This document shows positions 3,567 through 26,047 of a stretch of 64,000 nucleotides of DNA, piece after piece. Every line of letters begins with the position of its first letter. Position 1 is the first letter of the stretch. The stretch lies in the NCBI GenBank assembly GCA_947492905.1, contig CANLOL010000002.1:1-64000 (forward strand). The letters are read 5' to 3'. Origin of the DNA: an uncultured Sphingorhabdus sp. GTDB lineage: Bacteria > Pseudomonadota > Alphaproteobacteria > Sphingomonadales > Sphingomonadaceae. The translations under genes were made by a program, and so were the position numbers. A model generated the notes under the pieces. It did no database searches. It saw nothing but the letters and a program-made list of their open reading frames with translations, and had not been told where the DNA came from.

Positions 3567-4892
3567 ATGACATCAGCTTATAAAATCTGCATTGCCGCGT
3601 CTGCGGCCATTGCGCTAACATCGTCTGCCTTTGCACAAATTACAGCGCCAGATGAAGATAGAAGCAGCACGCAAGATATATGTTTATCGCTAAAAACAGC
3701 GCTTATATTATCAGCTAAACAGGATCCATCGGTCGTTATTGCGCGCGCTCAAGAAACCGAAGCCGAAGCCGACATAATAACCGCGCGTTCATTATTCCGT
3801 CCGCAAGTATCTGCTTTTGCAAGAACTGGAACGGGCAATGTGGGATTGACCGACAGCATCCTGCAAAACCAAATTGGTGTTCGCGCTTCACAGCGAATTT
3901 TTGATTTTGGAGACGCCAAATTTGCTCGAAGTTCCGCCCGTTTTGCTTTTAAGGCGAGCCAATTTGAATTGCGCCAAACGCAATTACAGGCCGCTTTCAA
4001 TACAGGGGTAGCATATCTGCAAGCTGCACGCGCCCAAGAGCAAATGAAGGTCACGCAGGAACGCCGCGCTTTTTTTGCACAACAATTGGAATCGGTTGAT
4101 ACTCTGTTGAGTCAAGGCGCCGCTACTCGCACCGAGCGTGCCAATGTAGCATCACGATTGGCCGATGCCGAAGCTTCTGGCTTGGAATTACAATTTGTCT
4201 TAGATAGCGCCAAGACGCAGGTGCAATTAGACACGGGGTTATTACCGCAAATATGCGATGAGACAGATCATAGAAATTTTCTCACTGCGCTATCATCCGC
4301 TATAACGGATAGGGACAGTGCAGTAAGTATCGCATTGGATAAAAACCCCAATGTTGAGGCATTAAAAAACCGAGTATTAGGATTAGATTCTCAACGCAAA
4401 CGTGAAAAAACTAGCCGCTTTCCGATTATCAGTGTGACCGCAACCTCTGCATTCTCATCAGCAGGTAGTATTACGGATTTGGACCAGCAAAATCGTATCG
4501 GCCTAGATGTCTCTTTCCCATTATATTCGGGTAACGCATTGGGTGCAGCCAATCAGCGTGTCGGAGCACAGCAAGCCGCAGCGCAAGGCCGTGTCCAAGA
4601 ATTAGAGCGTCAATTGACCGAAGAGGTAAGCATTGCTTATCAACGCATCGCCTCTTTGAGCAAACAATTGGCAAGCCGCAGCGAAGTTGAAAAACAGAGC
4701 CGTTTGCGTTTCGAAGCCGCGCAAATTGAATATGACGCTGGAACACGGACCTTATCTGAATTTATCGAGGTGCGATTAGAATATGAGCAGGCAGCCATTC
4801 AACGTATCAATGTTGAATATGCAATGCTTGATGAGCAACTTGAGTTTTTGACATTGACAGCACAATTGCCGATTGTTTTTGACGCGCTCTAA
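3567..4892 (+). CDS. tolC: TolC family outer-membrane channel of the type I secretion system
   Basis: This is the trimeric outer-membrane duct that completes the exporter. The 441-residue protein has a signal peptide (hydrophobic core followed by TSSAFAQ, cleavage near residue 23). It then shows the duplicated TolC/OEP helical repeat: two halves, each with long amphipathic helices and short beta strands (for example RASQRIFDFGDAKFARSS and LDVSFPLYSGNALGAANQR). A CGGGA stretch lies about 12 nt before the ATG. It is the last gene of the secretion operon, and about 80 nt separate it from the next gene. Confidence 0.9.
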   Translation: MTSAYKICIAASAAIALTSSAFAQITAPDEDRSSTQDICLSLKTALILSAKQDPSVVIARAQETEAEADIITARSLFRPQVSAFARTGTGNVGLTDSILQNQIGVRASQRIFDFGDAKFARSSARFAFKASQFELRQTQLQAAFNTGVAYLQAARAQEQMKVTQERRAFFAQQLESVDTLLSQGAATRTERANVASRLADAEASGLELQFVLDSAKTQVQLDTGLLPQICDETDHRNFLTALSSAITDRDSAVSIALDKNPNVEALKNRVLGLDSQRKREKTSRFPIISVTATSAFSSAGSITDLDQQNRIGLDVSFPLYSGNALGAANQRVGAQQAAAQGRVQELERQLTEEVSIAYQRIASLSKQLASRSEVEKQSRLRFEAAQIEYDAGTRTLSEFIEVRLEYEQAAIQRINVEYAMLDEQLEFLTLTAQLPIVFDAL

Positions 4893-4974: not shown

Positions 4975-5567
4975 ATGACCAATATACTCATTATTAACGG
5001 GCATCAGCCATTTCCGTCTTCATCTGGGAGACTAAACGCTGAATTTATATCGCGAGCAGAACAATATTTTGAAACAAATGGTGATAGCTGCCGTACTGTT
5101 AAGGTCGCAGAAGCATGGGATGTTGAAAATGAAATCGATAATCAGCTCTGGGCGGATTTGATATTGTTACAATTCCCGCTCAATTCTATGGGGCTGCCGT
5201 GGCCACTAAAACGATATCTGGATGAGGTTTATACCGCTGGAATGGATGGTAGTCTTGCAAAAGGTGATGGACGCACGCGATCCGATTCTAGCCGCCAATA
5301 TGGTTCTGGTGGGTGTATGGGGGATACCTCCTACATGCTATCAGTTACAATGAACGCGCCTAGTGAAGCTTTTAATGATCCTGCTATGAATCTTTTTGCT
5401 GGCCGCTCTGTCGATGAACTCTTGGCTCCGGTCCATATTAATTTGCATTTTTTGCATTAGCGCAATTACCAACATTTTGTGCTTTTGATGTAAATAAAAA
5501 CCCAACTGTGGAAGCAGATTTTGAATGTTTCGATAACCATCTAAGCAATCATACAAAGCTCAGTTAG
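4975..5567 (+). pseudogene. MdaB-like NAD(P)H quinone reductase, frameshifted near the 3' end
   Basis: The first 158 or so codons encode a flavodoxin-fold NAD(P)H:quinone oxidoreductase of the MdaB/KefF type: NILIINGHQPFPSSSGRLN for the flavin phosphate site, LILLQFPLNSMGLPWPLKRY, and YTAGMDG. The frame then hits a TAG at 5458-5460 after NLHFLH. Restoring one base just before 5454 gives an uninterrupted continuation [19 protein letters not shown] to the stop at 5565-5567. This has the family's FLGMxxLPTF spacing and a normal total of about 198 residues. The break therefore looks like a single-base deletion by a T run, unless it is a sequencing error. It falls exactly at the left edge of the first 166-bp direct repeat. 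No strong ribosome-binding site precedes the ATG. Confidence 0.8.
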
Positions 5568-5619
5568 GCACTAATACTAATATCCGCTTTTGTATCTCAT
5601 CAGAATTTAGAAGATAAAT
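5454..5619 (+). repeat. 166-bp direct repeat, copy 1 (mdaB 3' end plus downstream)
   Basis: This segment is repeated in the same orientation at 7167-7332, with only two differences, both in one codon (TGT here, CGC in the other copy, so Cys versus Arg). It comprises the last 37 codons of the quinone reductase and about 50 nt beyond the stop. Beyond the strict repeat, weaker similarity seems to continue towards the AraC start (TATAAAA...GTCATcTTCTC). Confidence 0.95.
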
Positions 5620-5653
5620 TTGACGAACCAGACAAATGTTATAAAAACATAAT

Positions 5654-6439
5654 ATGTCATCTTCTCAAATATCGGTATTCTCAATATCACAGGCAACGAC
5701 TGCTACTTTAGTAGATGTATATATCAATGATACTTCGATTTTCTTCATCCAAAACGGCAGTAAAAAAATACAAATATCGAGAGAACAACAGATAATTGGC
5801 GATGTTGGTGATATCATAATTTTACCGCCTGATTCTACTATAACCATGGAAAATAGAACTTGGTCTGGAATAGATTACCAAGCCATAGGCATGACCTTTC
5901 CGCATGAAATAATCAAAAATATTTTCTCTGAAACATCTAATTATATAGAAGATAAAACGCCTCAACTAATTTCACCTAGTCGTGAAGATGGTGAGTTTAT
6001 AGTTAAGACTATTCAGCAAATTCAACATGTAAAAGATGTTCCTGAAGCCATCGTGCAGCATCGTCTTATTGAGCCTCTTATTTGGCTTAAGTCATTAGGC
6101 GTGAAGCTCTCAACCCCACGTGATATAACAGCTATTGCACAAGTGCGCTCCTTAATTGAGACTGATTTAGAGCGCTCTTGGCGATCAGAAGATGTTGCGC
6201 AATACTTTGCAATGAGCGAAGCAACAATGCGACGTTGGTTGGCAAAGTCGAATATAAGCTTTTCTAAATTATTAAAAAACGCACGCCTTGAAAAAGGTTT
6301 AAGTCTCTTGCAAACGACTGAAACCTCTATCTCTGAGATTGCATATATATGTGGTTTCTCAACACCGTCTCATTTCTCTGACTCATTTAAGGATCGTTTT
6401 AATGTAAGTCCAAGAGCTATTCGCGTGCCAGAAAATTGA
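5654..6439 (+). CDS. AraC family transcriptional regulator
   Basis: This is a DNA-binding regulator of 261 residues. An N-terminal cupin-like sensing region covers about 1-130 (FFIQNGSKKIQI, DIIILPPDSTITM). The C-terminal AraC double helix-turn-helix covers about 165-258, with WRSEDVAQYFAMSEATMRRWL as the first motif and ISEIAYICGFSTPSHFSDSF as the second, ending in the usual F-x-V-S-P-R. The gene is clearly AT-richer than the secretion genes upstream. It sits with the PEBP gene between the two 166-bp repeats, so the pair seems to have arrived or been rearranged together. The target is unknown; the PEBP gene or the broken quinone reductase are candidates. No good ribosome-binding site is visible and its start region abuts the repeat. 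Confidence 0.85.
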   Translation: MSSSQISVFSISQATTATLVDVYINDTSIFFIQNGSKKIQISREQQIIGDVGDIIILPPDSTITMENRTWSGIDYQAIGMTFPHEIIKNIFSETSNYIEDKTPQLISPSREDGEFIVKTIQQIQHVKDVPEAIVQHRLIEPLIWLKSLGVKLSTPRDITAIAQVRSLIETDLERSWRSEDVAQYFAMSEATMRRWLAKSNISFSKLLKNARLEKGLSLLQTTETSISEIAYICGFSTPSHFSDSFKDRFNVSPRAIRVPEN

Positions 6440-6535
6440 TCGAATTTCGATATAACTTGACGGTATAATAGATGTAGCACGAGCTATTGGAACCTATGAA
6501 GTAGTTATCAATCACTACAAAAAAGGTTCTATAAA

Positions 6536-7093
6536 ATGAAAATTAAATATTCTATTATGACATTAATCAGCGCTCTAATATTCTATTCGAATCCTGCATC
6601 TGCGAGCGAATTTAAGCTTATAAGCAATGATATCTCAGAGGGGCATCAACTATCTTTGGATCATGTGTTCAAAGGCTTTGGCTGTGAAGGAAAGAATGTC
6701 TCCCCACATTTATCATGGTCGGGAGCTCCCGCAGAAACGAAAAGCTATGCTATAACTGTATATGACCCAGATGCCCCAACTGGTTCTGGGTGGTGGCATT
6801 GGAATCTTGTTAATATTCCAGCCACAACCTTATCAGTTGCTCGCGCAGTTAAAAGTGGAGATCAGAGCCTAGATGGATCAATCTCATTTAAAAATGATTA
6901 TGGTTCTGTTGGCTTTGGCGGTGCGTGTCCACCTCCAGGCGAAGTGCATAGATACCAATTTACTGTGCATGCTCTTGGAGTTGAAAAGATTGAATTACCA
7001 GAAAATGCGAGCAATGCTCTGGCAGGCTTTATGATAAATGCGAACTCTCTAGCTAAATCTAAAATTACTGCTGTCTACACGCGTGATAAATAA
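6536..7093 (+). CDS. YbhB/YbcL family (PEBP) secreted protein
   Basis: This is a phosphatidylethanolamine-binding-protein homologue of 185 residues. A signal peptide ends near NPASAS (residue 24). Family signatures follow: FGCEGKNVSPHLSWSGAP, YDPDAPTGSGWWHWNLVNIP and GGACPPPGEVHRYQF, the last three forming the conserved anion-binding pocket. The bacterial role of the family is poorly defined; export to the periplasm is predicted here. The gene lies 96 nt after the AraC regulator and is followed by an intrinsic terminator, so it may be under AraC control. Its upstream gap contains a TATAAT sequence near 6467, but I see no convincing -35 partner. Confidence 0.9.
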   Translation: MKIKYSIMTLISALIFYSNPASASEFKLISNDISEGHQLSLDHVFKGFGCEGKNVSPHLSWSGAPAETKSYAITVYDPDAPTGSGWWHWNLVNIPATTLSVARAVKSGDQSLDGSISFKNDYGSVGFGGACPPPGEVHRYQFTVHALGVEKIELPENASNALAGFMINANSLAKSKITAVYTRDK

Positions 7094-7112
7094 ATTATAA
7101 AAATTACAATAT

Positions 7113-7143
7113 AAAAAGCGGTCTTGTGAAGGGTCGCTTTTTT
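7113..7143 (+). terminator. Intrinsic terminator after the PEBP gene
   Basis: AAAAAGCG (7113-7120) pairs with CGCTTTTT (7135-7142) around a 14-nt loop, and the 3' arm runs straight into a T tract. It is 20 nt past the stop codon. The T-rich end merges with the start of a segment that resembles the AAA ATPase gene. Confidence 0.7.
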
Positions 7144-7146
7144 ATA

Positions 7147-7170
7147 CTCCAACACTTTTTGAGCAAGCAT
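7147..7170 (+). repeat. 24-bp perfect copy of an internal piece of the AAA ATPase gene
   Basis: These 24 bases recur exactly at 8514-8537 in the same orientation, inside the ATPase gene, where they encode part of LMLAQKVLE on the minus strand. Looser similarity extends leftwards over the T-rich stretch to about 7136. The segment joins the second 166-bp repeat through the shared four bases GCAT at 7167-7170. Confidence 0.85.
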
Positions 7171-7332
7171 TAGCGCAATTACCAACATTTTGTGCTTTTG
7201 ATGTAAATAAAAACCCAACTGTGGAAGCAGATTTTGAACGCTTCGATAACCATCTAAGCAATCATACAAAGCTCAGTTAGGCACTAATACTAATATCCGC
7301 TTTTGTATCTCATCAGAATTTAGAAGATAAAT
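7167..7332 (+). repeat. 166-bp direct repeat, copy 2 (detached mdaB 3' end)
   Basis: This is the second copy of the quinone reductase 3' end, same orientation as 5454-5619, 164 of 166 bases identical. It keeps the open frame [17 protein letters not shown] to its TAG but has no 5' part of the gene, so it is a gene remnant. The differing codon encodes Arg here, which fits the family (DFxRF) better than Cys in copy 1 and suggests this copy kept the older sequence. Confidence 0.95.
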
Positions 7333-7379
7333 ATTATAAAATATAAGACGTCATTTTCTCTTGTCCTTGCCAATCTATA

Positions 7380-9344
7380 TCATCTACCAAAGCCAAGGCG
7401 AACGCCGCCATCAGGTTTCAACTCTGCTTCTTTTTCTAAGGCTTTGAATATCTCAAGCGCAGTTATATTTTTGCAGAAACGAATTTGTTTTTTGACAACA
7501 GCAAAATCACCAGGCGTGAGGTTATCAAGATTGGTGATCTTTGCCGGTGCTTTCATGCCAAAAAATGTTTCAAATGCATGATGCAGCCCTTCTTCATCGA
7601 GCGGTCTTAATTCGAGTTTGAAATCAAAACGCCTCAGAGTAGCTGGATCCAATTTGGAAGCATGGTTGGTTGCCGCTAATACAGGCTGATCGTGCTTGTC
7701 GAGCCAAGACAATAATTCATTCACTTGTCCAACTTGCCAGTTTGCATTGGCAGAATTTCTATCAAACATAAGCGAGTCTGCTTCGTCAAAAAATAAAACA
7801 GCTTGCTCTGCTCGGGCATCAGCAAATGCATTGGCTATATTACTTTCTGTTTCTCCAACCCATTTGGAGAGTAAATCAGATGATTTTTGCGCTATTAGAG
7901 GCTTATCCAATTGGCGTGCAAAATGATGTGCCAATTCAGTTTTACCCGTGCCGGGTGGCCCACTTAACAGTATAGAAACATCGCGGTGATTGCTGATTGC
8001 AATATCATTGAGCAATTCCTTTATGGGGCTACTACAATTATACAGGTTCATATCGACATTTACCGATTTTACTAAAGGTAGATTTCCGTTACGCAAAGTT
8101 TTGATTAAGACCTTCGCTGGTTTTTGAATATCATAACATTCCCCAGCCAAACGTGCAGAGCGTGCCGCATTACGCAGGACAGTCGTTGCCTCTTTGGTTT
8201 GATCAATTAGTCCCATCATTTCTTGAGATAAATGGACCTTCTCATTATCACAAATACTTCTACCTATGCGCTGAGCGGCTATACGTGATGGATAATCAAG
8301 CTTTAAAACAAAGCTCATTCGGCGAATGATGGCATCATCAATATTGCCAACCGCATTGCTGGTCCAGATAACGGGAACATTATTATTCTCAAGCATTCGG
8401 TTGATGAAAATTTTACTGCCTTCACGCCGCGCCATCCAATCACCTATGCTTGGTTGACTGTCACCGATAAAATCTTCCATCTCATCAAATAAGATTATAG
8501 CTTCTTTTTTACCCTCCAACACTTTTTGAGCAAGCATCAATGCGCTAACGCGATCAAATCGGTTGGGTTCATCGCCATCATCATCAACTTCGCCAACGGC
8601 ATGTAAACGCAAATCATTATTCTGCGCCAATACACGCGCTAATTCGGTTTTACCTGTCCCTGGAGGACCGTGGATAAGGATATTAATGCCCTTAGCATTC
8701 TGCTCGACAGCTCCATTGATTAATTTTGCTAGAAATGAAGCATCCTCAACTTCTGCGAAATCGGACATCGTAAGTTTGGTTTTTTGACGCGGACCAATAA
8801 GCGCATCGACCAATTCACGATCCAATGCAGGTGCTTTGTCCAATAAGTTTTCAAGTGTCCATTTTACGTCGACTTCAGTCTCGCTACTATAGTTGACCTT
8901 AAATCCTATCAATCCCAATCGCAGAACAGGGCTGCGTCTGACGAAGTGCATGGCATCATCAGCACCGCAAAGTTCACCCAATATCTCAGGCAACTCCACG
9001 CCCTTTGATGAGATGAGATTTGCGAGTTTCCGAACCATTGGTAAACGGTCGCAAGAAATTAATAATGATAATAAACAGTGGTTTTCTGCATCTAATTCTA
9101 AAATATCGGCGATACCGTCTGCAAGTTCCAATACATAAGGCGACGAAGCTTCTGGTAAACGCCATTGATGGAGGGCCTCTTGTAAGAGGCTCCACTGCTT
9201 TGCTTTTTTCTTTGATAGCCCTAAATCTAGCCAAGCAAGATTATTGAGTATCCATTCTTTAAGCCCTTTTGCAAGGGGCGCGTCTTCTGTGAGCCCGCTG
9301 CATAAATGACACAGCATGGCTTTAACAATTTGATATTCAGTCAT
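7380..9344 (-). CDS. Tandem-AAA ATPase downstream of the RNA-repair genes
   Basis: The 654-residue cytoplasmic protein has two AAA modules. The first shows Walker A GPPGTGKTE near residue 226, Walker B ILFDEMEDF near 285 and sensor-1 WTSNA. The second shows GPPGTGKTELAHHF near 462, VLFFDEADSLM and AATNHASKLDPATLRRFD. The N-terminal 200 residues are helical and unrecognised. ATG at 9342-9344 was preferred over an upstream GTG because GGGA lies seven bases ahead. It points the same way as rtcB and rtcA and begins 296 bp after rtcA, so it may be part of, or a separate unit beside, the RNA-repair cluster. Two ring modules suggest an unfoldase or remodeller; the substrate is unknown. A 24-bp internal piece is duplicated at 7147-7170. 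Confidence 0.8.
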   Translation of the reverse strand: MTEYQIVKAMLCHLCSGLTEDAPLAKGLKEWILNNLAWLDLGLSKKKAKQWSLLQEALHQWRLPEASSPYVLELADGIADILELDAENHCLLSLLISCDRLPMVRKLANLISSKGVELPEILGELCGADDAMHFVRRSPVLRLGLIGFKVNYSSETEVDVKWTLENLLDKAPALDRELVDALIGPRQKTKLTMSDFAEVEDASFLAKLINGAVEQNAKGINILIHGPPGTGKTELARVLAQNNDLRLHAVGEVDDDGDEPNRFDRVSALMLAQKVLEGKKEAIILFDEMEDFIGDSQPSIGDWMARREGSKIFINRMLENNNVPVIWTSNAVGNIDDAIIRRMSFVLKLDYPSRIAAQRIGRSICDNEKVHLSQEMMGLIDQTKEATTVLRNAARSARLAGECYDIQKPAKVLIKTLRNGNLPLVKSVNVDMNLYNCSSPIKELLNDIAISNHRDVSILLSGPPGTGKTELAHHFARQLDKPLIAQKSSDLLSKWVGETESNIANAFADARAEQAVLFFDEADSLMFDRNSANANWQVGQVNELLSWLDKHDQPVLAATNHASKLDPATLRRFDFKLELRPLDEEGLHHAFETFFGMKAPAKITNLDNLTPGDFAVVKKQIRFCKNITALEIFKALEKEAELKPDGGVRLGFGR

Positions 9345-9463: not shown

Positions 9464-9524
9464 ATGGGAGAATATTAAAGATGGAGCGGCGCAGACCCGA
9501 AATATAAACGATATTATTTTTCAT
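9462..9524 (-). CDS. Possible 20-residue leader peptide upstream of the AAA ATPase
   Basis: A short frame (MKNNIVYISGLRRSIFNILP) is preceded by a very good ribosome-binding site (AGGAG, seven bases before the ATG). Its TAG stop lies at the edge of the hairpin at 9447-9463. It is about 120 nt upstream of the ATPase start on the same strand. Such an arrangement could be an attenuator, or chance. I do not recognise the peptide. Confidence 0.3.
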   Translation of the reverse strand: MKNNIVYISGLRRSIFNILP

Positions 9525-9539
9525 CGCGTTTCTCCTGTG

Positions 9540-9561
9540 ACATTCGCAATATTGTGAATGT
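9540..9561. promoter_or_regulatory. 22-bp near-perfect palindrome, candidate operator
   Basis: ACATTC-G-CAATATTG-T-GAATGT reads the same on both strands apart from one mismatched pair. It lies in the 295-bp gap between rtcA and the AAA ATPase gene, directly upstream of the AGGAG of the small leader frame on the minus strand. Its symmetry and length suit a dimeric repressor or activator site controlling the ATPase gene separately from rtcBA. Confidence 0.5.
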
Positions 9562-9639: not shown

Positions 9640-10659
9640 TTATTTTGATCCTATAAGAACCAAAAACGCTCCAGTTTTTGTTGGACTAAATTCAATTTTA
9701 ATATCCGTGAATAAACTAATGATTTCTGCGTTGGTAAGGCTATGCTGACTAGGCTTAACAGTCGTGAATTTCCCGCCACCTGCTATTGCCATCGGCAATA
9801 ATAATTGATCAGCCAAATAGGGGCCAGCAAATGCCTCGCTATTCATATATCCTTTCAATCTATTGGCCGCCGTTTTCGCAAGACGTTCGGCTTTTAGGCC
9901 TAACTTGCCAAAGCCGCTTACGATTTCTGTGACATGTTCATACTGAGCTTCTAAGAGCAAGATATTCCCTGGGCCTTGATCTTCGGGCAATTGACGTACT
10001 CCAATTGCTTCTTCATCCCAACTTAGAACCTTACGTGCGGCTTTTACTTCGCGATCAGCCACATCAAATGGTAATCCAGTAAACATTGCAGTGCCATTGA
10101 CGCTCTTCAACTCGCCGCGATCAATGCAATCTATGCGTTTTAACGGAGCGGGATTAATATCAATCTCGATACGGCCGCCGCCGCGCGGAAAGAAACCATG
10201 ACGGATTAACCGAGCAGAGACTGACGGTCCCATGCGATTGATTATCGGTAAAAACACTCGTTCGATAAAATCAAAAGGAGGCGCCATCATATTATGCGTG
10301 CCGCCTTCCAATATAATGTGCGAAGGTCCATCAGCATAAAGCAGAGGTATCAATATTGTTTGCAGGACTAGGCCAGTGCTGCCGGCCGTCCCAACTTTAA
10401 AATTATAATTCCCAGATTTAATTTTCCCAGGATGAAAAATAATTTCTGAAGAGCCAACATGCAGTCCTTCGCAGCTGGAATCGCTGATCGCACATGCCGC
10501 TTCAATGCATGTAACATGCTGGCGCATCATCCCTGGCTTTTCACGTTTGCCGCGAATATCTGTGATATGAAATGGTTTTCCAGTCAACAAAGAAAGAGCG
10601 GCTGAGCTTCGTAATATTTGACCGCCACCTTCGCCTTCTGATCCGTTAATTTTAATCAT
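9640..10659 (-). CDS. rtcA: RNA 3'-terminal phosphate cyclase
   Basis: RtcA converts an RNA 3'-phosphate to a 2',3'-cyclic phosphate using ATP, through an adenylated enzyme; it can also adenylate 5' ends. The 339-residue protein starts with the family motif NGSEGEGGGQILRSS and carries RGGGRIEI near residue 160. The nucleotidyl-accepting histidine is in KPSQHSLTNAE (His305, equivalent to E. coli His309). It follows rtcB by 51 nt on the same strand, so the two should be co-transcribed from the sigma54-type promoter upstream of rtcB. Length and motifs are complete. Confidence 0.95.
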   Translation of the reverse strand: MIKINGSEGEGGGQILRSSAALSLLTGKPFHITDIRGKREKPGMMRQHVTCIEAACAISDSSCEGLHVGSSEIIFHPGKIKSGNYNFKVGTAGSTGLVLQTILIPLLYADGPSHIILEGGTHNMMAPPFDFIERVFLPIINRMGPSVSARLIRHGFFPRGGGRIEIDINPAPLKRIDCIDRGELKSVNGTAMFTGLPFDVADREVKAARKVLSWDEEAIGVRQLPEDQGPGNILLLEAQYEHVTEIVSGFGKLGLKAERLAKTAANRLKGYMNSEAFAGPYLADQLLLPMAIAGGGKFTTVKPSQHSLTNAEIISLFTDIKIEFSPTKTGAFLVLIGSK

Positions 10660-10700: not shown

Positions 10701-10721
10701 TGAAGGGTAATTATCCCTTCA
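10701..10721 (-). other. Hairpin between rtcB and rtcA
   Basis: TGAAGGG (10701-10707) and CCCTTCA (10715-10721) form a 7-bp stem around TAATTAT, overlapping the last codons and stop of rtcB. No T run follows on the minus strand, so it is more likely an intercistronic processing or stability element than a terminator. Confidence 0.5.
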
Positions 10722-11940
10722 CGCACACAATTTGTTTTAACGTATGGACAATCTCTACCAGATCATCCTGCGCAACCATTACCGCTTCAATAGGCTTATA
10801 GGCCTTTGGCGTTTCGTCAAGCACACCAATATCTTTGCGGCATTCAACGCCCATAGTATCTTCTACATGTTCCTCCAAGGATACAGCTTTTTTGGCCTCT
10901 GTACGTGACATGACACGACCAGCACCATGGCTGCAACTTTCGAAAGCATCTCTGTTACCAAGGCCGCGAACGATGAATGATTTAGCACCCATTGATCCTG
11001 GGATAATACCCATCATACCCTTTGATGCGCGCACTGCGCCTTTGCGGGTAATCAAAACATCTTCGCCAAAATGCCGTTCGCGATTGACATAATTATGGTG
11101 GCAGTTAATCGCCTCCATTTCTGCATCAAAAGCTTTGGCTATTTGACCGCGTAATGCTTTAATGACATTTTTCATCATCATTTGACGGTTGGCCAGAGCA
11201 AAATCTTGTGCCCACCCCACGGCCTCGACATAATCATCGAAATGATCTGTGCCTTCGGGAAAATAAGCCAGATTGCTATCGGGCAAATTGATATGCCATT
11301 TACGCATATCTTGTTTTGCCAATTCGATGAATTGTGAACCGATAGCATTACCTACTCCGCGTGATCCGCTGTGCAGCATCACCCATACACGGTCCTCGGT
11401 ATCAAGGCATAATTCAATAAAGTGATTGCCTGTACCGAGCGTTCCGAGATGGTTGATATTATTTGTATTCTTAAAGCGCGGATATTTATCTGTAATACGC
11501 TCAAATCGAGCAGATAAAGGCGCCCATGCATCGGTGATCTCATTTGAGGGTTCACCCCATGAACCAACATCGCGGCGACCACGACCCACTGAACGACCAT
11601 GCGGTACAGCAGCTTCTATTGCGCTTCTGATCCCTGAGAGATTATCAGGCAAATCGCGTGCATTTAGAGATGTTCTAGCCGCCATCATGCCACAGCCAAT
11701 ATCAACACCAACTGCGGCTGGAATGATTGCACCTTTGGTAGGGATAACCGAACCAATGGTTGCACCAATACCGACATGAACATCTGGCATTACTGCTACA
11801 TGGCTGAAAATAAATGGCATTTTAGCCGCTTTGGAAAGCTGACGTTTTGCTCCATCATCAACGGGAACACCGCGTGTCCACATTTTAATGGGGCGACCAC
11901 CTTCTACATCCATATATTCATAATTTGTATCGGTCATCAT
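10711..11940 (-). CDS. rtcB: RNA-splicing ligase RtcB
   Basis: RtcB joins RNA 2',3'-cyclic phosphate or 3'-phosphate ends to 5'-hydroxyl ends in a GTP- and manganese-dependent reaction, repairing broken tRNA or rRNA. The 409-residue protein has the metal-binding Asp and Cys in VGVDIGCGM (Asp80, Cys83), further metal ligands in GTGNHFIEL and NCHHNYVN, and the guanylylated histidine in SCSHGAGRVMSR (His338, equivalent to E. coli His337). A GGGAGA stretch lies just before the first ATG. It heads the rtcBA unit, divergent from rtcR. Confidence 0.96.
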   Translation of the reverse strand: MMTDTNYEYMDVEGGRPIKMWTRGVPVDDGAKRQLSKAAKMPFIFSHVAVMPDVHVGIGATIGSVIPTKGAIIPAAVGVDIGCGMMAARTSLNARDLPDNLSGIRSAIEAAVPHGRSVGRGRRDVGSWGEPSNEITDAWAPLSARFERITDKYPRFKNTNNINHLGTLGTGNHFIELCLDTEDRVWVMLHSGSRGVGNAIGSQFIELAKQDMRKWHINLPDSNLAYFPEGTDHFDDYVEAVGWAQDFALANRQMMMKNVIKALRGQIAKAFDAEMEAINCHHNYVNRERHFGEDVLITRKGAVRASKGMMGIIPGSMGAKSFIVRGLGNRDAFESCSHGAGRVMSRTEAKKAVSLEEHVEDTMGVECRKDIGVLDETPKAYKPIEAVMVAQDDLVEIVHTLKQIVCVKG

Positions 11941-14052: not shown

Positions 14053-15759
14053 ATGATTATTGGTATAGATTTAGGTACTACAAATAGTGCTTGTTCAATT
14101 TGGCGTGATGGTAAGGCTGAGTTAATCCCTAATGCACTTGGAGACTTTCTAACGCCATCAGCAGTTGGGTTAAATGATGATGGTGAATTGCTGATTGGTA
14201 AATCAGCACGTGATCGCGAAGCCTATAACCCCGAATTTACTACATCCGCATTTAAGCGTTTAATGGGCACCGACAAAAAAATCACTCTGGATAATAAGAA
14301 ATTCTCACCTGAAGAACTTTCAGCATTGGTGCTTCGGCAGTTAAAAGAGGATGCTGAAAACTTCCTAGGAGAGAGTGTTAACGAGGCAGTTATAACGGTT
14401 CCTGCATATTTTAATGATCGTCAGAGAAAAGCTACGCGCCTAGCAGGTGAATTAGCGGGATTGAAAGTGCAGCGTCTCATTAATGAACCGACTGCAGCGG
14501 CTTTAGCACATGGTATTCATGAGAAAGATGATGAAGACCCATTCCTTATTTTTGACCTTGGTGGTGGTACTTTTGATGTTTCCCTTGTTGAGATATTCGA
14601 TGGCATCATAGAAGTCCATGCATCGGCAGGCGATAATTGGCTTGGCGGTGAAGACTTTAACGATGCGATGATCAAATTAGCGCGCAGCAGGATTGATACT
14701 TGGGGTTCCATTAAGGTTGATGATGAAACAGCCTTTCGCGAAGTCATGCGTGCGGCTGCGGAACGCACACGCCGCGCACTTACCGATGAAGAGAGCGCCC
14801 AATTTTCTATAGTGTGGAACGATCAGGAACATCAATGCTCCATCACAAGATCATTATTTGAACAGGAAGCCAGTCCGTTAATTGAGAGGTTGCGTCAACC
14901 GCTCAGCCAATCCATTCGTGATAGTGGATTACAGTCTGAACAATTGGGTAAAATCATATTGGTTGGTGGTGCGACAAGAATGCCGATAGTCAGGCGCGCC
15001 GTCACCAAATTATTTGGAAGATTCCCTGATACGTCTCTTGATCCCGATCATGCAATTGCTTTGGGCGCTGCTATCCAAGCTGGTTTAAAACAAAAAGATG
15101 CGGCCCTTGAAGAGATTCGTTTGACTGATGTTTGTCCGTTCACACTTGGTGTTGATACATCTCATCAAGATGCTAGCGGTAAAGTCATCGAAGGTTTTTT
15201 TGCCCCTATTATAGAGCGAAATACGGTCATACCTGCTAGCCGAGTAGAATCATTCTACCCAATGAACGCACAACAAAGATCAGTTTTATTCAACATTTAT
15301 CAAGGTGAGTCACGGCGTGTTGATGGTAATGTATTTCTCGGCAAGATTGAAGTAGCAGTTCCCCCCGGACGAAAAGGGGAGGTGTCATTAGATGTTCGCT
15401 TTACTTATGATGTGAGTGGATTGTTGGAAGTCGATATTCATGTTCCTAAAACGGGATTGAGAGAGCAATTGGTTATTCAAGATGGAGCAGGAAACCTCTC
15501 GGAGGGCGATATACAAAAACTTCGCAAATCTCTTGAAAAGTTAAAGGTTCATCCTCGCGATCAGAGTGAGAATGCTGCGCTTATGGCGCGTGCAGATCGC
15601 TGTTTCCAAAGTGCTCTTGGAGATGAGCGGGCTTATATTGGGGGGCTAATTTCACAATTTACGGCTGTGCTTGAAAAACAAGACCCCAAATTAATTAAGC
15701 AATCGCGAGATGAAATTTCAACCATATTGAACGAGATTGAAGGTGCGCCAATATTGTGA
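14053..15759 (+). CDS. hscC: HscC-type Hsp70 chaperone
   Basis: This is an ATP-dependent chaperone of the Hsp70 superfamily. At 568 residues it is shorter than DnaK and matches HscC. It shows the N-terminal phosphate loop GIDLGTTNSACSIW, the second phosphate motif FDLGGGTFDVS near residue 168, the adenosine motif VGGATRMPIVR near 313, and a reduced substrate-binding region with a short C-terminal lid. A J-like membrane protein follows with a 4-nt GTGA overlap, recalling the E. coli HscC and DjlB/DjlC pairing. The 195-nt gap upstream is AT-rich, and I see no clear heat-shock promoter in it. It follows the RNA-repair genes, but a functional link is only positional. Confidence 0.88.
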   Translation: MIIGIDLGTTNSACSIWRDGKAELIPNALGDFLTPSAVGLNDDGELLIGKSARDREAYNPEFTTSAFKRLMGTDKKITLDNKKFSPEELSALVLRQLKEDAENFLGESVNEAVITVPAYFNDRQRKATRLAGELAGLKVQRLINEPTAAALAHGIHEKDDEDPFLIFDLGGGTFDVSLVEIFDGIIEVHASAGDNWLGGEDFNDAMIKLARSRIDTWGSIKVDDETAFREVMRAAAERTRRALTDEESAQFSIVWNDQEHQCSITRSLFEQEASPLIERLRQPLSQSIRDSGLQSEQLGKIILVGGATRMPIVRRAVTKLFGRFPDTSLDPDHAIALGAAIQAGLKQKDAALEEIRLTDVCPFTLGVDTSHQDASGKVIEGFFAPIIERNTVIPASRVESFYPMNAQQRSVLFNIYQGESRRVDGNVFLGKIEVAVPPGRKGEVSLDVRFTYDVSGLLEVDIHVPKTGLREQLVIQDGAGNLSEGDIQKLRKSLEKLKVHPRDQSENAALMARADRCFQSALGDERAYIGGLISQFTAVLEKQDPKLIKQSRDEISTILNEIEGAPIL

Positions 15760-18701: not shown

Positions 18702-21104
18702 ATGAGCATTACCGAAGTTGCTAAACCAAAACATTTGGGTGTTCCTGCTCTTATTTATGGAGTTATTCTTCCAACCCTTACCATTTTGATTGAGCTTACC
18801 ACTCAATTATGTGCTGACACTTTCTTTGACCCTTTGCCAACATGGCAAATGACACTATTGGTCATGGCCGTTCCGGCAGCAAATTTTCATTTATGGTATA
18901 AACTGCGATCAAGCTCTACAATATCGACTATGGCATTATATTGTTATGGAGCTACTTTTATAATATCAATCATATATGCTCTTATCATGTTGCCGCTCAT
19001 CCCATTGGCACTGATTGCAATAATATATTTTGGTTTGGGATTGTTACCATTAGCGCCTATATTCACCGCTATATACATGGGGATGGCAACGCGAAATCTA
19101 TCTATGGTGAAGCCTGACTTTTGGAGAGCCTTTGGCTCGGGAATGGGTATCGGCTTCGCTTTATTATTTATTGCTGATTTGCCTGCCAGCGCAACACGGA
19201 TAGCCATTGATATGGCTAATGATGGCGATGATAAAAATGCCATATCGATAATGCGTTGGGTTGGCAGCGAGAATGATCTGCTGCATCTTGCTAATGGATC
19301 TACGGGGCGTGCAGGCGGTATTAGCAGTATATTTTTAACCGGAAAGTGGGGTTTTAATATTTGGGGTTTTAGCAACCTGACTGAGAGCCAATCGGAAATT
19401 ATAACGGCCCGTATACTATATTATAGGGTAACAGGCCAAGCATATAATCAAAGCGAGGCCATACAATCGTTAAAATCTAAAGGCGCTCGATGGCGTTGGG
19501 ATAATGATCAAGGCGGCGATGTCGTTGGTGGTTATATCGATACTTTATCGTTGGAATCTTCGCGTATTGACGGTTCTATTTCTGTTGAAAATAATGTTGC
19601 CTATAGTGAATGGACAGTCGAGGTAGCTAATAATGGTAACCGCAATGCAGAAGCGCGTTTCACTATGGTGCTTCCAGAGGGCGGCGTTGCATCTAGGGCG
19701 ACGCTATGGATTAATGGCGAACCAAGAGAAGCAAGCATAGCAGGTCGCGCTGAAGTAAAAGCTGCGTATAAAAAGATTGTAACACGCCAACGCGATCCGT
19801 TGCTAGTGACAACATCTGGTAATGGACGATTATTGGTTCAAGCCTTCCCGATATTAAGCAATGATGTAATGAAATTTAGAGTTGGTTTTTCCGCTCCGCT
19901 TCACATTGCAAGCGATGGTAGTCGATCAATAGCAATGCCAGCTATAGTAGAGCAAAATTTTCGGATTAAAGAAAGCTTGCAGCATAATATATGGATGGAA
20001 GGGGATGTATCGCCAAAACAAAATGGTTGGTCAGGTACAACAATAGAAAATGGGGCTTCAAGATTAAAAGCTCAGATAAGTGATACAGAATTACGGTCGA
20101 AACGGCCACGTATAATGGCCAGCAAGATTGCTTCACCCATCGTAATGACGGCAGTTATAGATCAAAATAGAAAAGGGCCTGCTATTGCGATACAGCAGAG
20201 TATCGCAAAACAGAGCAAAGAAAAACTGAATGGACTTACAATTTTGTTGGATGGTTCGGTTACAAATAATGAAGCTGCTCAAGCCCTCTCAAAAGCATTA
20301 GATGGTATAGAAGAAAACACATCTGTTGGTTTAATAATCGCTAGAGATGATTCGATTATAATTGAGCGAGCTCCATGGTCTCAAATGCAAAAGAGCAAAT
20401 TTGTCGATGCCATTGATGATACAGACTTTGTAGGCGGCGTTGACAATATAGCTGCGCTAACAACTGCGCTTGAAAATAGTACTAAAAAGCAAGAGGCTAT
20501 TCTTTGGATACATGGTCCGCAGCCCATTATATTTCCTGCATCAACGGCTGCACTTGAGCAATTTTTAGAACGCAACGGATCGGTTATTCCACAATTAATA
20601 CGCTATCAATCAGTAGCAGGCCGTTCTTATGTGCTACAAGAAAAAGCTCTCTTTGAAACAGCCCATGAAATTGCGCCGAGCGGTGATGCGAAAAGCGATT
20701 TACAAGCATTATTATCTGATATCACATCGGATCAACCTCGGTGGGAAATTGAACGCAGTGAAACGAATGGAACGGGGCCTGGGTCACCACATATTATCAG
20801 ACTTTGGGCCGCAGATAAACTTGCTAATGGGGCTCCTTATAAGGATGATGCGCGCGATGAAGCTATTGATTTGGCTCATAGACTTAATATCATTACGCCG
20901 GTTAGCGGAGCCGTCGTATTGGAAACAGAGCAAGATTATGATGAAAATGGTTTGCCAATACCAACATCGGATGAAGTTCCTAGCGTACCTGAGCCCCATG
21001 AATGGGCTTTAATCATTTTGTTGATATTATTTGTCGGTTGGACCTTGCATCGCAGAGGTTATAAAATTGAACAATTGTTCCCCAAAAGGCAAAGTTTCGC
21101 ATGA
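18702..21104 (+). CDS. VIT-domain protein with PEP-CTERM-like sorting tail
   Basis: The 800-residue protein starts with about four membrane segments (residues 15-165). A VIT-like domain follows at about 285-420 (YSEWTVEVANNGNRNAEARFTMVLPEGGVASRATLWINGEPREA, given in part). A von Willebrand-like part comes next (LTILLDGSVTNNEAAQAL). The extreme C-terminus is a sorting signal: VPEP at 762-765, a hydrophobic helix, then a basic cluster LHRRGYK. That tripartite tail is what exosortases cleave. The exosortase gene overlaps its stop codon by 4 nt, so this is very probably its dedicated substrate. VIT proteins linked to dedicated exosortases are known in other phyla (XrtN systems); I cannot say which subfamily this is. 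Confidence 0.8.
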   Translation: MSITEVAKPKHLGVPALIYGVILPTLTILIELTTQLCADTFFDPLPTWQMTLLVMAVPAANFHLWYKLRSSSTISTMALYCYGATFIISIIYALIMLPLIPLALIAIIYFGLGLLPLAPIFTAIYMGMATRNLSMVKPDFWRAFGSGMGIGFALLFIADLPASATRIAIDMANDGDDKNAISIMRWVGSENDLLHLANGSTGRAGGISSIFLTGKWGFNIWGFSNLTESQSEIITARILYYRVTGQAYNQSEAIQSLKSKGARWRWDNDQGGDVVGGYIDTLSLESSRIDGSISVENNVAYSEWTVEVANNGNRNAEARFTMVLPEGGVASRATLWINGEPREASIAGRAEVKAAYKKIVTRQRDPLLVTTSGNGRLLVQAFPILSNDVMKFRVGFSAPLHIASDGSRSIAMPAIVEQNFRIKESLQHNIWMEGDVSPKQNGWSGTTIENGASRLKAQISDTELRSKRPRIMASKIASPIVMTAVIDQNRKGPAIAIQQSIAKQSKEKLNGLTILLDGSVTNNEAAQALSKALDGIEENTSVGLIIARDDSIIIERAPWSQMQKSKFVDAIDDTDFVGGVDNIAALTTALENSTKKQEAILWIHGPQPIIFPASTAALEQFLERNGSVIPQLIRYQSVAGRSYVLQEKALFETAHEIAPSGDAKSDLQALLSDITSDQPRWEIERSETNGTGPGSPHIIRLWAADKLANGAPYKDDARDEAIDLAHRLNIITPVSGAVVLETEQDYDENGLPIPTSDEVPSVPEPHEWALIILLILFVGWTLHRRGYKIEQLFPKRQSFA

Positions 21105-21886
21105 TACAGGCTCGACATGCTTTGCTATTATTAGCAATTATATATTGGGATGCTTGGCGATTGCTGATAATACGGATTGGCGATGGGGCTGCGGCAGTGC
21201 CTGTGGCGATACTATTGTTGGGTATAGCCATTGCATGGAATAAACTCTCTCAAAACAAGCAACTTTCTATATTACCTATAGGGGCAGCTCTTATTTTTTA
21301 TATCCTCGCAGCCTTATGGGGAACGGCGATGATGAAAATTGGTATAGCCCTTGTCACAATATTATTGGTATTAAATTATGGTTTAGGAAGGAAGAAACCT
21401 CCATATGCGGCTATGGGGGTCGGTTTATTGGCTTTGCCTATATTGCCATCGCTCGATTTTTATCTTGCATGGCCGATGCGGCAAATATCGGCATCACTAA
21501 CGGCCGGTTTGCTCCGTTTAAATGGCTTTTCTGTGCATGTCGAAGGTGTAGCAATCGCGTGGCAGGATCAATTATTATTGTTCGATGGCCCATGCAGCGG
21601 CATCAATATGCTCTGGGCGGCATTATTATTAACTAGCATATTATCGTTGATTGGACAGGTTGGGCCCATTCGATATGGTACGGCATTAATAATTACGGCG
21701 TTGATGGCAATATTTGCAAATGCCTTGCGCGCATCGAGCTTATTCTATTTAGAAACTGGTTTTATCCCTGCAATGCAAGGTCCGGTTTTTCATGAATTGG
21801 TTGGCATCTCATCCTTTGTTATCTTGGGTGTAGGGCTTGTATTCGCCTTTCATAAGCATAATCAGAGGGTGCAAAAATGCGTATAA
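21101..21886 (+). CDS. Exosortase/archaeosortase family transpeptidase
   Basis: This is an integral-membrane cysteine protease-transpeptidase that recognises PEP-CTERM-type tails. The 261-residue protein has about eight membrane segments and all three catalytic positions: Cys165 in FDGPCSGINM, Arg210 in ANALRAS and His231 in FHELVG. Its ATG overlaps the stop of the VIT protein, and its own end overlaps the next gene by 10 nt, a tight operon. It is likely devoted to the VIT protein upstream, because no other tail of that kind and no exopolysaccharide genes are found in the window. Confidence 0.88.
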   Translation: MIQARHALLLLAIIYWDAWRLLIIRIGDGAAAVPVAILLLGIAIAWNKLSQNKQLSILPIGAALIFYILAALWGTAMMKIGIALVTILLVLNYGLGRKKPPYAAMGVGLLALPILPSLDFYLAWPMRQISASLTAGLLRLNGFSVHVEGVAIAWQDQLLLFDGPCSGINMLWAALLLTSILSLIGQVGPIRYGTALIITALMAIFANALRASSLFYLETGFIPAMQGPVFHELVGISSFVILGVGLVFAFHKHNQRVQKCV

Positions 21887-23778: not shown

Positions 23779-23940
23779 ATTGCCCCCACGCTAATAAAAT
23801 AGTTATAATATCATGTAGGAATCAATATTGTAATAACAAGCATTATTATATGCTCTTAATACTATGACATTTGATATGGTTAATGATGTAGGAGCTTAGA
23901 ATTTCAATAATTATCCACTCAATAGTTTGTTTATTTCCAA

Positions 23941-25926
23941 TCAAATATTAGTACTGACGGGTATCAAACTCGGCTGTAAATAATGATAAGGGTGCATGCG
24001 TTGCTGATTGCGTTCTATGATGCGTTTTTCAACCTCTCGAAGAGCAGCTTGGAAGCGTGCTAATGGGCCTTCACTTTGTGTGATAGACGTGTCTTGGAAC
24101 CATGATTTATAAGGCAAGCGATTGGTCTGATATTGACCCAATGGCCGATAATAAACAGATCCCAAAAGAATTAAGGATGATTGTTGCAACAAAGCCAAAG
24201 ACATTGGCGGCATATAATCTAACCATATTTTTTTTGTATGACCATCTTGATTATTAGGAGCAGCGACCCAGCCTCCGCCAGTGATAGCGGGAGCAAATGA
24301 CATCATTTCGCGTTGCGGGAAATTAACGGCAGCATGCTGCGCGCTGGCCGTGAAAATAATCATTGTACAAACATCAATGAGTTGTTCACGTGATGTTATA
24401 GATTTAAAATCAAGGATGCGACCTTCTTTCGCACTAGCAATTGATTTAACCCAATTTTTCAGTTCATTGTCATTGGTGATATCTACATCATCTTTATAAT
24501 AGGTCTTGATATATTCTGATACCCAATCATGAATAGCATCCCATACCAATAAAGCATCATCGCGATAAGGATATTCTGCTAGTTTTGAAGCATTATCTAC
24601 TCCGCGCGCTATAAGATCATTGCGGATCATCTTCCTGTAAAAATCAAATGATAGGCGGCCTTCGGCTGCGGCCAGTTGGCTGGATGTAATCGTGCCACCA
24701 AAAAACGCATCAATTGGGCCTCCTTTGTTGATTAATGTCTCAACTGCCAAATTATTGATAAATAATGTACCTTCAAAATGCGGCACTAATAGAGACCATA
24801 AAGGGTGCACCTCAGCAAGGTTACGGCGAGTGGCAACGGCAATTGCTTCGCTTACTAAATGCGTGCCAGCAAGATGCACAAATAACTCATGATAATTACA
24901 ATCAGCAACTTGAACGACAAATTTCGCCATTTGCCATCCCCAGTTTTTGTTGGATTGTGTGGATGGCAACATGACAGGATATCTTGTTGGATCCTGCCCG
25001 CATTGGATTGCAACCGGTGTTAATGATGAACTATTTGGTGGAATCGCAAATAGGGCCATCGGTTGATAGACATATTTGGCATTACCTTCCCAGACTCCAG
25101 CTACTAATATATTAAGATCAACATAGTCGCAAAGAAATATTCGACCTTGGCTGAGAGCATCGCTTAGATTGTCATTCGCTATTGAAGATGCATAATGCCC
25201 GTTCGTGATAGGGAAATTTTCAGGTATCTCTTTTATGTTTTTTAATAACATTGGATTTGGACCTGCTACGCGCAGACGTGCAAATTCACTATCATCTAGG
25301 AATGTATAGGCTGTGCTCGGTATTTCAAAAGTTTGGAAAAGATTTTGATAAGATTCTAAGGACTTCGTCTCTGCTGTGTCTACTGCTTTTAGGACGTTAA
25401 TAATAATATCGGTAACATCACGTAGGTCACTTGCTAGATTTTCAAGTTTTTCCATGTCATGGGATTGTTCGGCTTCGCTAATGATTTTCTCAAGACTATC
25501 CTCGTCACTTTTGTTACCAGCGCCATGTTTTTTACGGAGTTGTTCAACCTTATTTGAAATTTGATTGGCACGATTTATGGCATTATTGATAATTTCTAAT
25601 CCGGCGTTTTCGATACCTGTGAATATAGGCTTTTCTATCACGGCAACAATATTAGTTATTATCGCAATCCCTGTATTTAAAACCTCGAACCACCAGAAGA
25701 TAGACGGCTTGTCATCGCTTGGAACACCATTAGCAACAGGAACGCCAGGCAGCGCTTCAGCACTGGCCCACTGATAAATTTCTCGTGTGTCAGAAATTTG
25801 TTGTTTACGTTTCTGGCGAGCACTCTTTGTATCATCTTGAGGGAGGCTAGGGTTAGCAGCACCGCGTTTTATATGGAGAATATTCTCATCGGAAGGGCTT
25901 AGGTGTTTCTTACTTTCGAATAACAT
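23941..25926 (-). CDS. Bacterial lipoxygenase
   Basis: This is a non-haem iron dioxygenase that adds oxygen to polyunsaturated fatty acids. The 661-residue protein keeps all five iron ligands: His351 and His356 in HELFVHLAGTH, His532 and Asn536 in SAQHAAVNFPQ, and the terminal Ile661 of the sequence, whose carboxylate binds iron. The conserved RRNLAEVHPLWSLLVPHF also fits. There is no plant-type PLAT domain; residues 1-200 are a charged, partly coiled-coil region. ATG at 25924-25926 was chosen over an upstream GTG because AGGA lies six bases ahead. No signal peptide is visible. Bacterial lipoxygenases are uncommon. Confidence 0.92.
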   Translation of the reverse strand: MLFESKKHLSPSDENILHIKRGAANPSLPQDDTKSARQKRKQQISDTREIYQWASAEALPGVPVANGVPSDDKPSIFWWFEVLNTGIAIITNIVAVIEKPIFTGIENAGLEIINNAINRANQISNKVEQLRKKHGAGNKSDEDSLEKIISEAEQSHDMEKLENLASDLRDVTDIIINVLKAVDTAETKSLESYQNLFQTFEIPSTAYTFLDDSEFARLRVAGPNPMLLKNIKEIPENFPITNGHYASSIANDNLSDALSQGRIFLCDYVDLNILVAGVWEGNAKYVYQPMALFAIPPNSSSLTPVAIQCGQDPTRYPVMLPSTQSNKNWGWQMAKFVVQVADCNYHELFVHLAGTHLVSEAIAVATRRNLAEVHPLWSLLVPHFEGTLFINNLAVETLINKGGPIDAFFGGTITSSQLAAAEGRLSFDFYRKMIRNDLIARGVDNASKLAEYPYRDDALLVWDAIHDWVSEYIKTYYKDDVDITNDNELKNWVKSIASAKEGRILDFKSITSREQLIDVCTMIIFTASAQHAAVNFPQREMMSFAPAITGGGWVAAPNNQDGHTKKIWLDYMPPMSLALLQQSSLILLGSVYYRPLGQYQTNRLPYKSWFQDTSITQSEGPLARFQAALREVEKRIIERNQQRMHPYHYLQPSLIPVSTNI

Positions 25927-26047
25927 ATCAAATCCTTCATATAGGGTCACATGTATGAAACTTATGTAAACATAGTTAAAACTCTGTAAATTTATCAGAA
26001 TGTCACATCATGTTGCGAAGCCCTAGCTTTCTTGTTAATGAATCCAC

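Follow-up and report, generated by a model that had tools for sequence, protein, structure and literature searches.

Duplication of an mdaB-like gene end and a short, probably templated patch flank an AraC-PEBP gene pair in an uncultured Sphingorhabdus sp.

We analyzed a 64,000-nucleotide stretch from an uncultured Sphingorhabdus sp. (assembly GCA_947492905.1, contig CANLOL010000002.1, positions 1 to 64,000), referred to here as the window, in which a two-gene unit encoding an AraC-family regulator and a PEBP protein lies between two nearly identical copies of the 3′ end of an mdaB-like oxidoreductase gene. The structure is chimeric: the second copy is fused, at a microhomology of 4 nt, to a short filler that matches a neighboring double-AAA ATPase gene, this source is intact, and the modules involved occur separately elsewhere. 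The scar is probably the product of illegitimate, templated recombination without a recognisable mobile element. As the favored explanation, we propose that illegitimate copy-based repair brought the AraC-PEBP unit to the 3′ end of mdaB, left this end in two copies and placed the AAA-derived filler beside one of them, a reading to which we assign a probability of about 0.48. The features of the region are as follows:

4975..5567, plus strand: mdaB-like oxidoreductase gene (Flavodoxin_2; Pfam PF02525, E 2.6e-23, residues 1-161)
5454..5619, plus strand: copy 1 of the 166-bp repeat, comprising the mdaB 3′ end and 52 bp of downstream DNA, attached to its own gene
5620..7146, plus strand: AraC-PEBP unit with its flanks, between repeat and filler, with limits set by the repeats
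5654..6439, plus strand: AraC-family regulator, 261 aa (Pfam PF12833, E 5.2e-18)
6536..7093, plus strand: PEBP of the YbhB/YbcL family, 185 aa (Pfam PF01161, E 1.6e-38; NCBIfam TIGR00481, above cut-off)
7113..7142, plus strand: hairpin and T tract behind the PEBP gene (-11.8 kcal/mol, z -2.96, equalled by 1 of 200 shuffled sequences)
7147..7170, plus strand: filler, 24 bp identical to 8514-8537 within the AAA gene, extending left to 7137 at 32/34 bases
7167..7332, plus strand: copy 2 of the 166-bp repeat, no longer attached to mdaB, its first four bases (GCAT) shared with the filler
7333..7379, plus strand: short stretch from copy 2 to the AAA stop codon, containing 7334-7360
7380..9344, minus strand: double-AAA ATPase gene, intact (Pfam PF00004, two stretches)
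8504..8537, minus strand: source of the filler, within the double-AAA ATPase coding sequence, which is intact

The two copies of the direct repeat (5454-5619 and 7167-7332) are identical at 164 of 166 bases, the mismatches lying solely at 5526/7239 and 5528/7241, and the genome as a whole has the 166-bp sequence twice, each time in the 5454-7332 region. Immediately to the left of copy 2, positions 7147-7170 are identical to 8514-8537 at 24 of 24 bases, and the match can be extended leftward to 32 of 34 bases (7137-7170 against 8504-8537), with the last 24 exact. The filler match and the 166-bp match overlap by exactly GCAT (7167-7170), and no further identity is present on either side; given equal base frequencies, about 1.6% of random joins should show an overlap of at least 4 nt. 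These three elements, together with the position of the AraC and PEBP genes between the repeats, had been proposed in an earlier sequence-only reading of the region and were all reproduced here. The same reading had anticipated three repeat pairs in a self-comparison; BLAST of the whole window against itself (word 11, E <= 1e-3) gave two, the 166-bp repeat and the AAA-derived filler. A seed-based repeat finder returned additional families of 16-24 nt at 75-83% identity, and these look like chance.

Comparison with related genes distinguishes the two copies. The open frame 4975-5460 matches Flavodoxin_2 in Pfam (the name mdaB is that of the sequence-only reading; NCBIfam returned KefF only, below cut-off), and in relatives the part that matches this frame directly precedes, in-frame, the part that matches the first codons of the repeat. 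Among the best 80 of 206 loci, which were used for the alignment, the N- and C-terminal parts were contiguous in all 80, in the same frame and with no bases between them, indicating that copy 1 is mdaB's own 3′ end in situ and that copy 2 is the detached one. The short second part had a match of its own at 75 of 88 loci. In the window, the reading frame changes inside a run of six T residues (T6, 5448-5453) that abuts the start of the repeat at 5454, and the gene is otherwise full length, with its 3′ end in place as copy 1 and its stop codon, TAG, at 5565-5567. The gene described earlier as broken is thus better described as full length with a frame change, and the event did not truncate it. 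The sole codon that differs between the copies encodes Arg in copy 2 and Cys in copy 1, a two-base change; Arg is also found in 78 of the 80 relatives, the others having one His and one Gln. Genome G246 gave a second mdaB-like match (L042), with partial query cover and an internal TAG.

Any history of the region has to yield the hairpin-to-filler join, the filler-to-mdaB-end join at GCAT and the end of the 166-bp match. Under the favored explanation, a break or a stalled end would have arisen in mdaB between T6 and GCAT (5453/5454). Starting on the left of this point, synthesis would have copied the 166 bp of the mdaB end anew, giving rise to the present copy 1, and would then have switched to the incoming AraC-PEBP DNA and, briefly, to 24-34 bp of the neighboring AAA gene. 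The growing end would at last have annealed through GCAT to the sequence right of the original break, whose own mdaB end would have become copy 2. The order of these steps, their occurrence in a single event and the break point are what we infer. One event at T6/GCAT would leave AraC-PEBP between the copies, the frame change at the edge of copy 1 and the conserved version in copy 2, and, were the left edge of copy 1 a real joint, a frame change precisely there would be expected. In support of this, both the frame change and the Arg-to-Cys change lie in or at the edge of copy 1, and copy 2 has kept the prevailing Arg. Furthermore, the interval between the repeats is taken up by the AraC-PEBP unit, which recurs elsewhere, has a lower GC content and is restricted to its own genome within the genus. 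The inserted DNA matches nearby sources that are still in place, since the AAA gene is intact and the mdaB end is in situ, albeit in a gene with a frame change. As to the joins, one has GCAT and the hairpin-filler join has 8 shared bases and 2 mismatches; that at 7332/7333 or 5619/5620 is without a known second parent.

The sequence-only reading had arranged the events differently, with AraC-PEBP already standing between mdaB and the AAA gene and a later event inserting a templated patch behind PEBP: 24-34 bp would have been copied from the AAA gene, a switch at GCAT would have led to the mdaB end, and 166 bp would have been copied before rejoining, making copy 2 the new one. This order yields the same junctions, keeps copy 1 attached to its gene and fits the start of the filler 4 bp after the PEBP hairpin; however, AraC-PEBP must then have arrived earlier and separately, the frame change at the repeat edge is left as a coincidence, and both later base changes fall in copy 1. 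We consider it unlikely, and still worth keeping in view. What is supported in the sequence-only reading is the fusion of an AAA patch and an mdaB-end patch at a 4-nt microhomology; the template switching it invoked is one of several histories with the same junctions.

Another such history starts from the join itself. If 5454-8537 had been duplicated in tandem, with 8537 joined to 5454 at GCAT, and two deletions had then trimmed one AraC-PEBP and part of one AAA copy, exactly the observed AAA-to-mdaB join would result, and the sequence CTTTTTTA, which is common to 7137-7144 and 8504-8511, could have guided one of the trimming deletions. There is also a precedent in E. coli, where the part of the published account drawn on here describes the selection of a tandem duplication bordered by a 9-bp microhomology and states that microhomology was not necessary (PMC11111574). 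Nevertheless, three events would be required after the arrival of AraC-PEBP, the AAA gene is doubled over 24-34 bp only, and the single AraC gene and single PEBP gene in the genome leave no further trace of a second copy. Taken together, these points make this history quite improbable.

The enclosed unit fits closely between the repeats: 34 bp separate the start of the AraC gene from the repeat edge, and 4 bp lie between the PEBP hairpin and the filler. This hairpin (7113-7142) is a probable terminator, even though it was not among the terminators listed by a consensus scan. The GC content of 5620-7166 is 0.379, compared to 0.433 for the window. In searches of 45 genomes of the genus, the AraC and PEBP genes were each found in one, the window's own, and were absent from the other 44; that genome carries one AraC gene and one PEBP gene. 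Outside the genus, we considered 16 other AraC or PEBP loci, comprising three plasmid loci, all 12 foreign loci of the class-wide AraC search and one family locus (L172, chosen because its DNA matched both genes). The two genes were adjacent at 11 of these (L143-L145, L147-L153 and L172, with L149-L151 representing one genus), in the order AraC then PEBP at eight and reversed at L143, L144 and L153. An AraC relative in genome G210 is 56% identical and adjoins a PEBP gene. The pair is present on E. coli, Citrobacter and Roseobacter plasmids: the YbcL-YbcM pair of enterobacteria (E. coli plasmid, Citrobacter plasmid) resembles the unit in that PEBP adjoins an AraC-family gene, although the gene order is reversed there, and the Roseobacter plasmid pROLI83 has AraC then PEBP, as in the window. 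No AraC relative was found in viral contigs, and phage records gave three partial matches of 75-76% within the PEBP gene.

Integrative elements usually insert in the 3′ end of a gene, with that end repeated, and the duplicated mdaB end therefore has the usual look of such an insertion, in which the 166-bp copies would be the attachment sites of an element remnant. However, among the 21 translations scanned between 508 and 27172, none was a recombinase, integrase or transposase, in agreement with the sequence-only reading; the scan took in open reading frames of at least 90 aa and the 37-codon mdaB end, and four of the translations were without any Pfam match. The AAA protein gave a generic P-loop match to IstB_IS21, one of 35 AAA-type families that it matched. 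AraC-PEBP pairs elsewhere also lack such flanks: by BLAST against self at E <= 1e-3, 0 of 9 pairs (the 11 apart from L151 and L153) had any repeat in the stretch compared, and the seed-based finder returned nothing in three of four stretches and, in the fourth (L161), short local repeats and a weak flanking pair of 37 nt at 76%. Since the AAA filler at the inner edge would in addition go unexplained, a remnant of an integrative element is barely credible here.

We also searched for the ancestral arrangement. The genus searches comprised 45 genomes for mdaB, PEBP and AraC and 99 for AAA; class searches with mdaB and AraC covered 385 genomes, the family DNA search 397, and mdaB was also sought among named genomes, with the family DNA matches in G014, G590, G662 and G706 lying outside the loci examined. 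Across these genus, class, family and named-genome searches, no mdaB/AAA or mdaB/AraC/PEBP neighborhood was found. The sequence-only reading had taken mdaB directly beside the AAA gene as the ancestral order, which was seen in no relative: mdaB was present in the stretches of 0 of 10 AAA loci, and the AAA gene was present in the flanks of 0 of 88 mdaB loci. Of the 45 genus genomes, only the window's own gave mdaB. The left neighbor of mdaB, an outer membrane protein gene (3567-4892), had matches in 42 of the 45 genus genomes, with the best other match at 29%, and hence offers no left flank for comparison. AAA relatives at ten family loci are 38-61% identical over most of their length, and all ten are without mdaB, AraC or PEBP in stretches of 3.5-11 kb; in the genus, 97 of 99 genomes matched, mostly through generic AAA domains, the best long outside match being 31% (G029). 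Elsewhere these three modules, the AAA gene, mdaB and the AraC-PEBP pair, thus stand apart from one another.

These searches bear on a further possibility, namely a single crossover within the 166 bp by a circularised incoming piece that carried an mdaB end, AraC, PEBP and a piece of AAA. The geometry fits, as foreign DNA would lie between direct repeats, in the manner described for E. coli in the part of that report used here (PMC3240628). Yet a donor with mdaB beside AraC is required, and PEBP was found in the flanks of 0 of 88 mdaB loci (the flanks of eight being only ~1.5 kb), a partial AraC-type match, to the DNA-binding part, lay near mdaB at 7 of 88, and mdaB was found at 0 of the 16 AraC or PEBP loci (flanks of ~1.5 kb in 12). 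The AAA filler would moreover need another origin, and we regard this crossover as highly improbable.

A number of observations weigh against the favored explanation. No other A/T run in mdaB reaches six bases, so slippage at T6 could account for the frame change, and slippage or sequencing error alone may explain it. The hairpin-filler join is unclean, with 8 bases in common, 2 mismatches and then 24 identical bases. Just past the 166-bp repeat, 7334-7360 resembles 5639-5666 in 23 of 28 columns; if real, this likeness would mean that copy 2 extends into the start of AraC, which the favored order does not predict. Among control windows, 1100 in each of two comparisons, its score of 29 was reached by 2 and by 0, and under softer scoring by 3 and by 5, or about 1-5 per 1000. 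The likeness is far more diverged than the 166-bp repeat, and may or may not reflect homology of the two segments and hence a longer copy. At five of the 16 AraC or PEBP loci (L154-L158), no PEBP gene was present within ~1.5 kb of the AraC relative; these are the weakest AraC matches, confined to the DNA-binding part. In addition, a relative with an empty mdaB/AAA boundary was not found in the searches above. In the close relative G011, similarity starts at 23931 of the window, and 60 kb of G011, from the shared block outward, were without a match to 1-23930, so the site is not comparable there. The first 24 kb of the contig looks variable between species.

Frame changes in T6 runs are common sequencing errors, and the location of this one would be consistent with an assembly artefact. 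The copies nevertheless differ at two bases, the joins are precise to the base and the contig is 233 kb long; an artefact of assembly is accordingly hardly plausible.

We examined whether scars of this kind are common in the genome. We sampled 20 stretches of 20 kb from it, and among the repeats listed, up to 12 per stretch, none of at least 100 bp had >= 95% identity (L181 alone, with its tandem array, had further ones, and its top repeat was at 90%). Repeats of at least 100 bp were present in L181, L183, L185, L187 and L198, all at <= 93% identity. Stretch L189 had two repeats of 29-31 bp at ~97%, one intergenic and the other inside one gene; the intergenic 31-bp repeat (L189:9227-9257 and 9510-9540) resembles a repetitive extragenic palindrome (REP). 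A separate contig, C1 (L181:1-3229), starts with long imperfect tandem repeats of up to 1.9 kb at 90%, and contig C2 starts with the window, beside type I secretion genes; it is our guess that the ends of both contigs lie in one giant repeat protein gene.

To the right of the scar, the AAA gene adjoins rtcA (9640-10659) and rtcB (10711-11940), which match RTC and RtcB in Pfam. The segment 7380-13857 forms an RNA-repair cluster of the double-AAA ATPase, rtcA, rtcB and a divergent rtcR, and is followed by an HSP70 gene (14053-15759). At the family loci, rtcA/rtcB stood beside the AAA gene at two of ten (L170 and L171) and were not seen in the stretches of the other eight; L170 has a second RtcB-like gene after the AAA gene. 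Further along, a VIT-domain protein (TIGR04477, XrtN system, below cut-off) beside an exosortase gene (PF09721) makes up an exosortase-like pair at 18702-21886, and 23941-25950 is a lipoxygenase gene (PF00305, E 1.2e-71), at which the similarity to G011 sets in.

The class of mechanism that we favor is already known. Microhomology-directed template switching, which includes microhomology-mediated break-induced replication (MMBIR), fork stalling and template switching (FoSTeS) and polymerase-theta end joining, is best described in eukaryotes. Double illegitimate recombination in Acinetobacter baylyi, along with its short-patch form, reportedly joins pieces without long homology on either side. 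The scar resembles the products of MMBIR, FoSTeS and polymerase-theta end joining in that short patches from nearby sources are fused at microhomology; papers on template switching or templated insertion include PMC5120786 and PMC12426944. In homology-facilitated illegitimate recombination (HFIR), according to the section of the literature we draw on, one side is joined via shared sequence and the other at a microhomology of mostly 3-10 bp, and recipient DNA of about the size of the insert is generally deleted (PMC3240628). The 4-nt GCAT lies within that range of microhomology; in contrast to HFIR as described in that section, the mdaB and AAA genes are full length here and recipient DNA is duplicated, although an intergenic loss is possible (PMC3240628). 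The same section reports 14 sequenced E. coli clones in which conjugated DNA had integrated as a circle, with the shared segment duplicated over 109-950 bp (PMC3240628). The scar is similar in combining foreign DNA with a duplicated chromosomal segment and differs in its AAA-type filler, none being described for E. coli in that section (PMC3240628). An HFIR-like arrival of gene modules has likewise been proposed, in the part of the report at hand, for the type VI secretion system arrays of Vibrio (PMC5361080).

The strongest form of our proposal is that a foreign two-gene unit was captured in a single repair event that switched template three times or more, took in the 24-34-bp patch from a neighboring gene and duplicated the end of the landing-site gene; we hold this form to be possible and somewhat doubtful. 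If true, such a single-event capture would resemble the patchwork repair by polymerase theta in eukaryotes, an enzyme that is not known to occur in bacteria. Old sites seldom reveal how small foreign units settle without a transposase or integrase, and here the joins are legible to the base. A single case cannot establish a general route, but other genomes can be screened for the signature, a foreign gene pair between two copies of a neighbor's 3′ end together with a local filler. If the proposal is true, small gene units would have a way of settling at gene ends that requires no mobile element.

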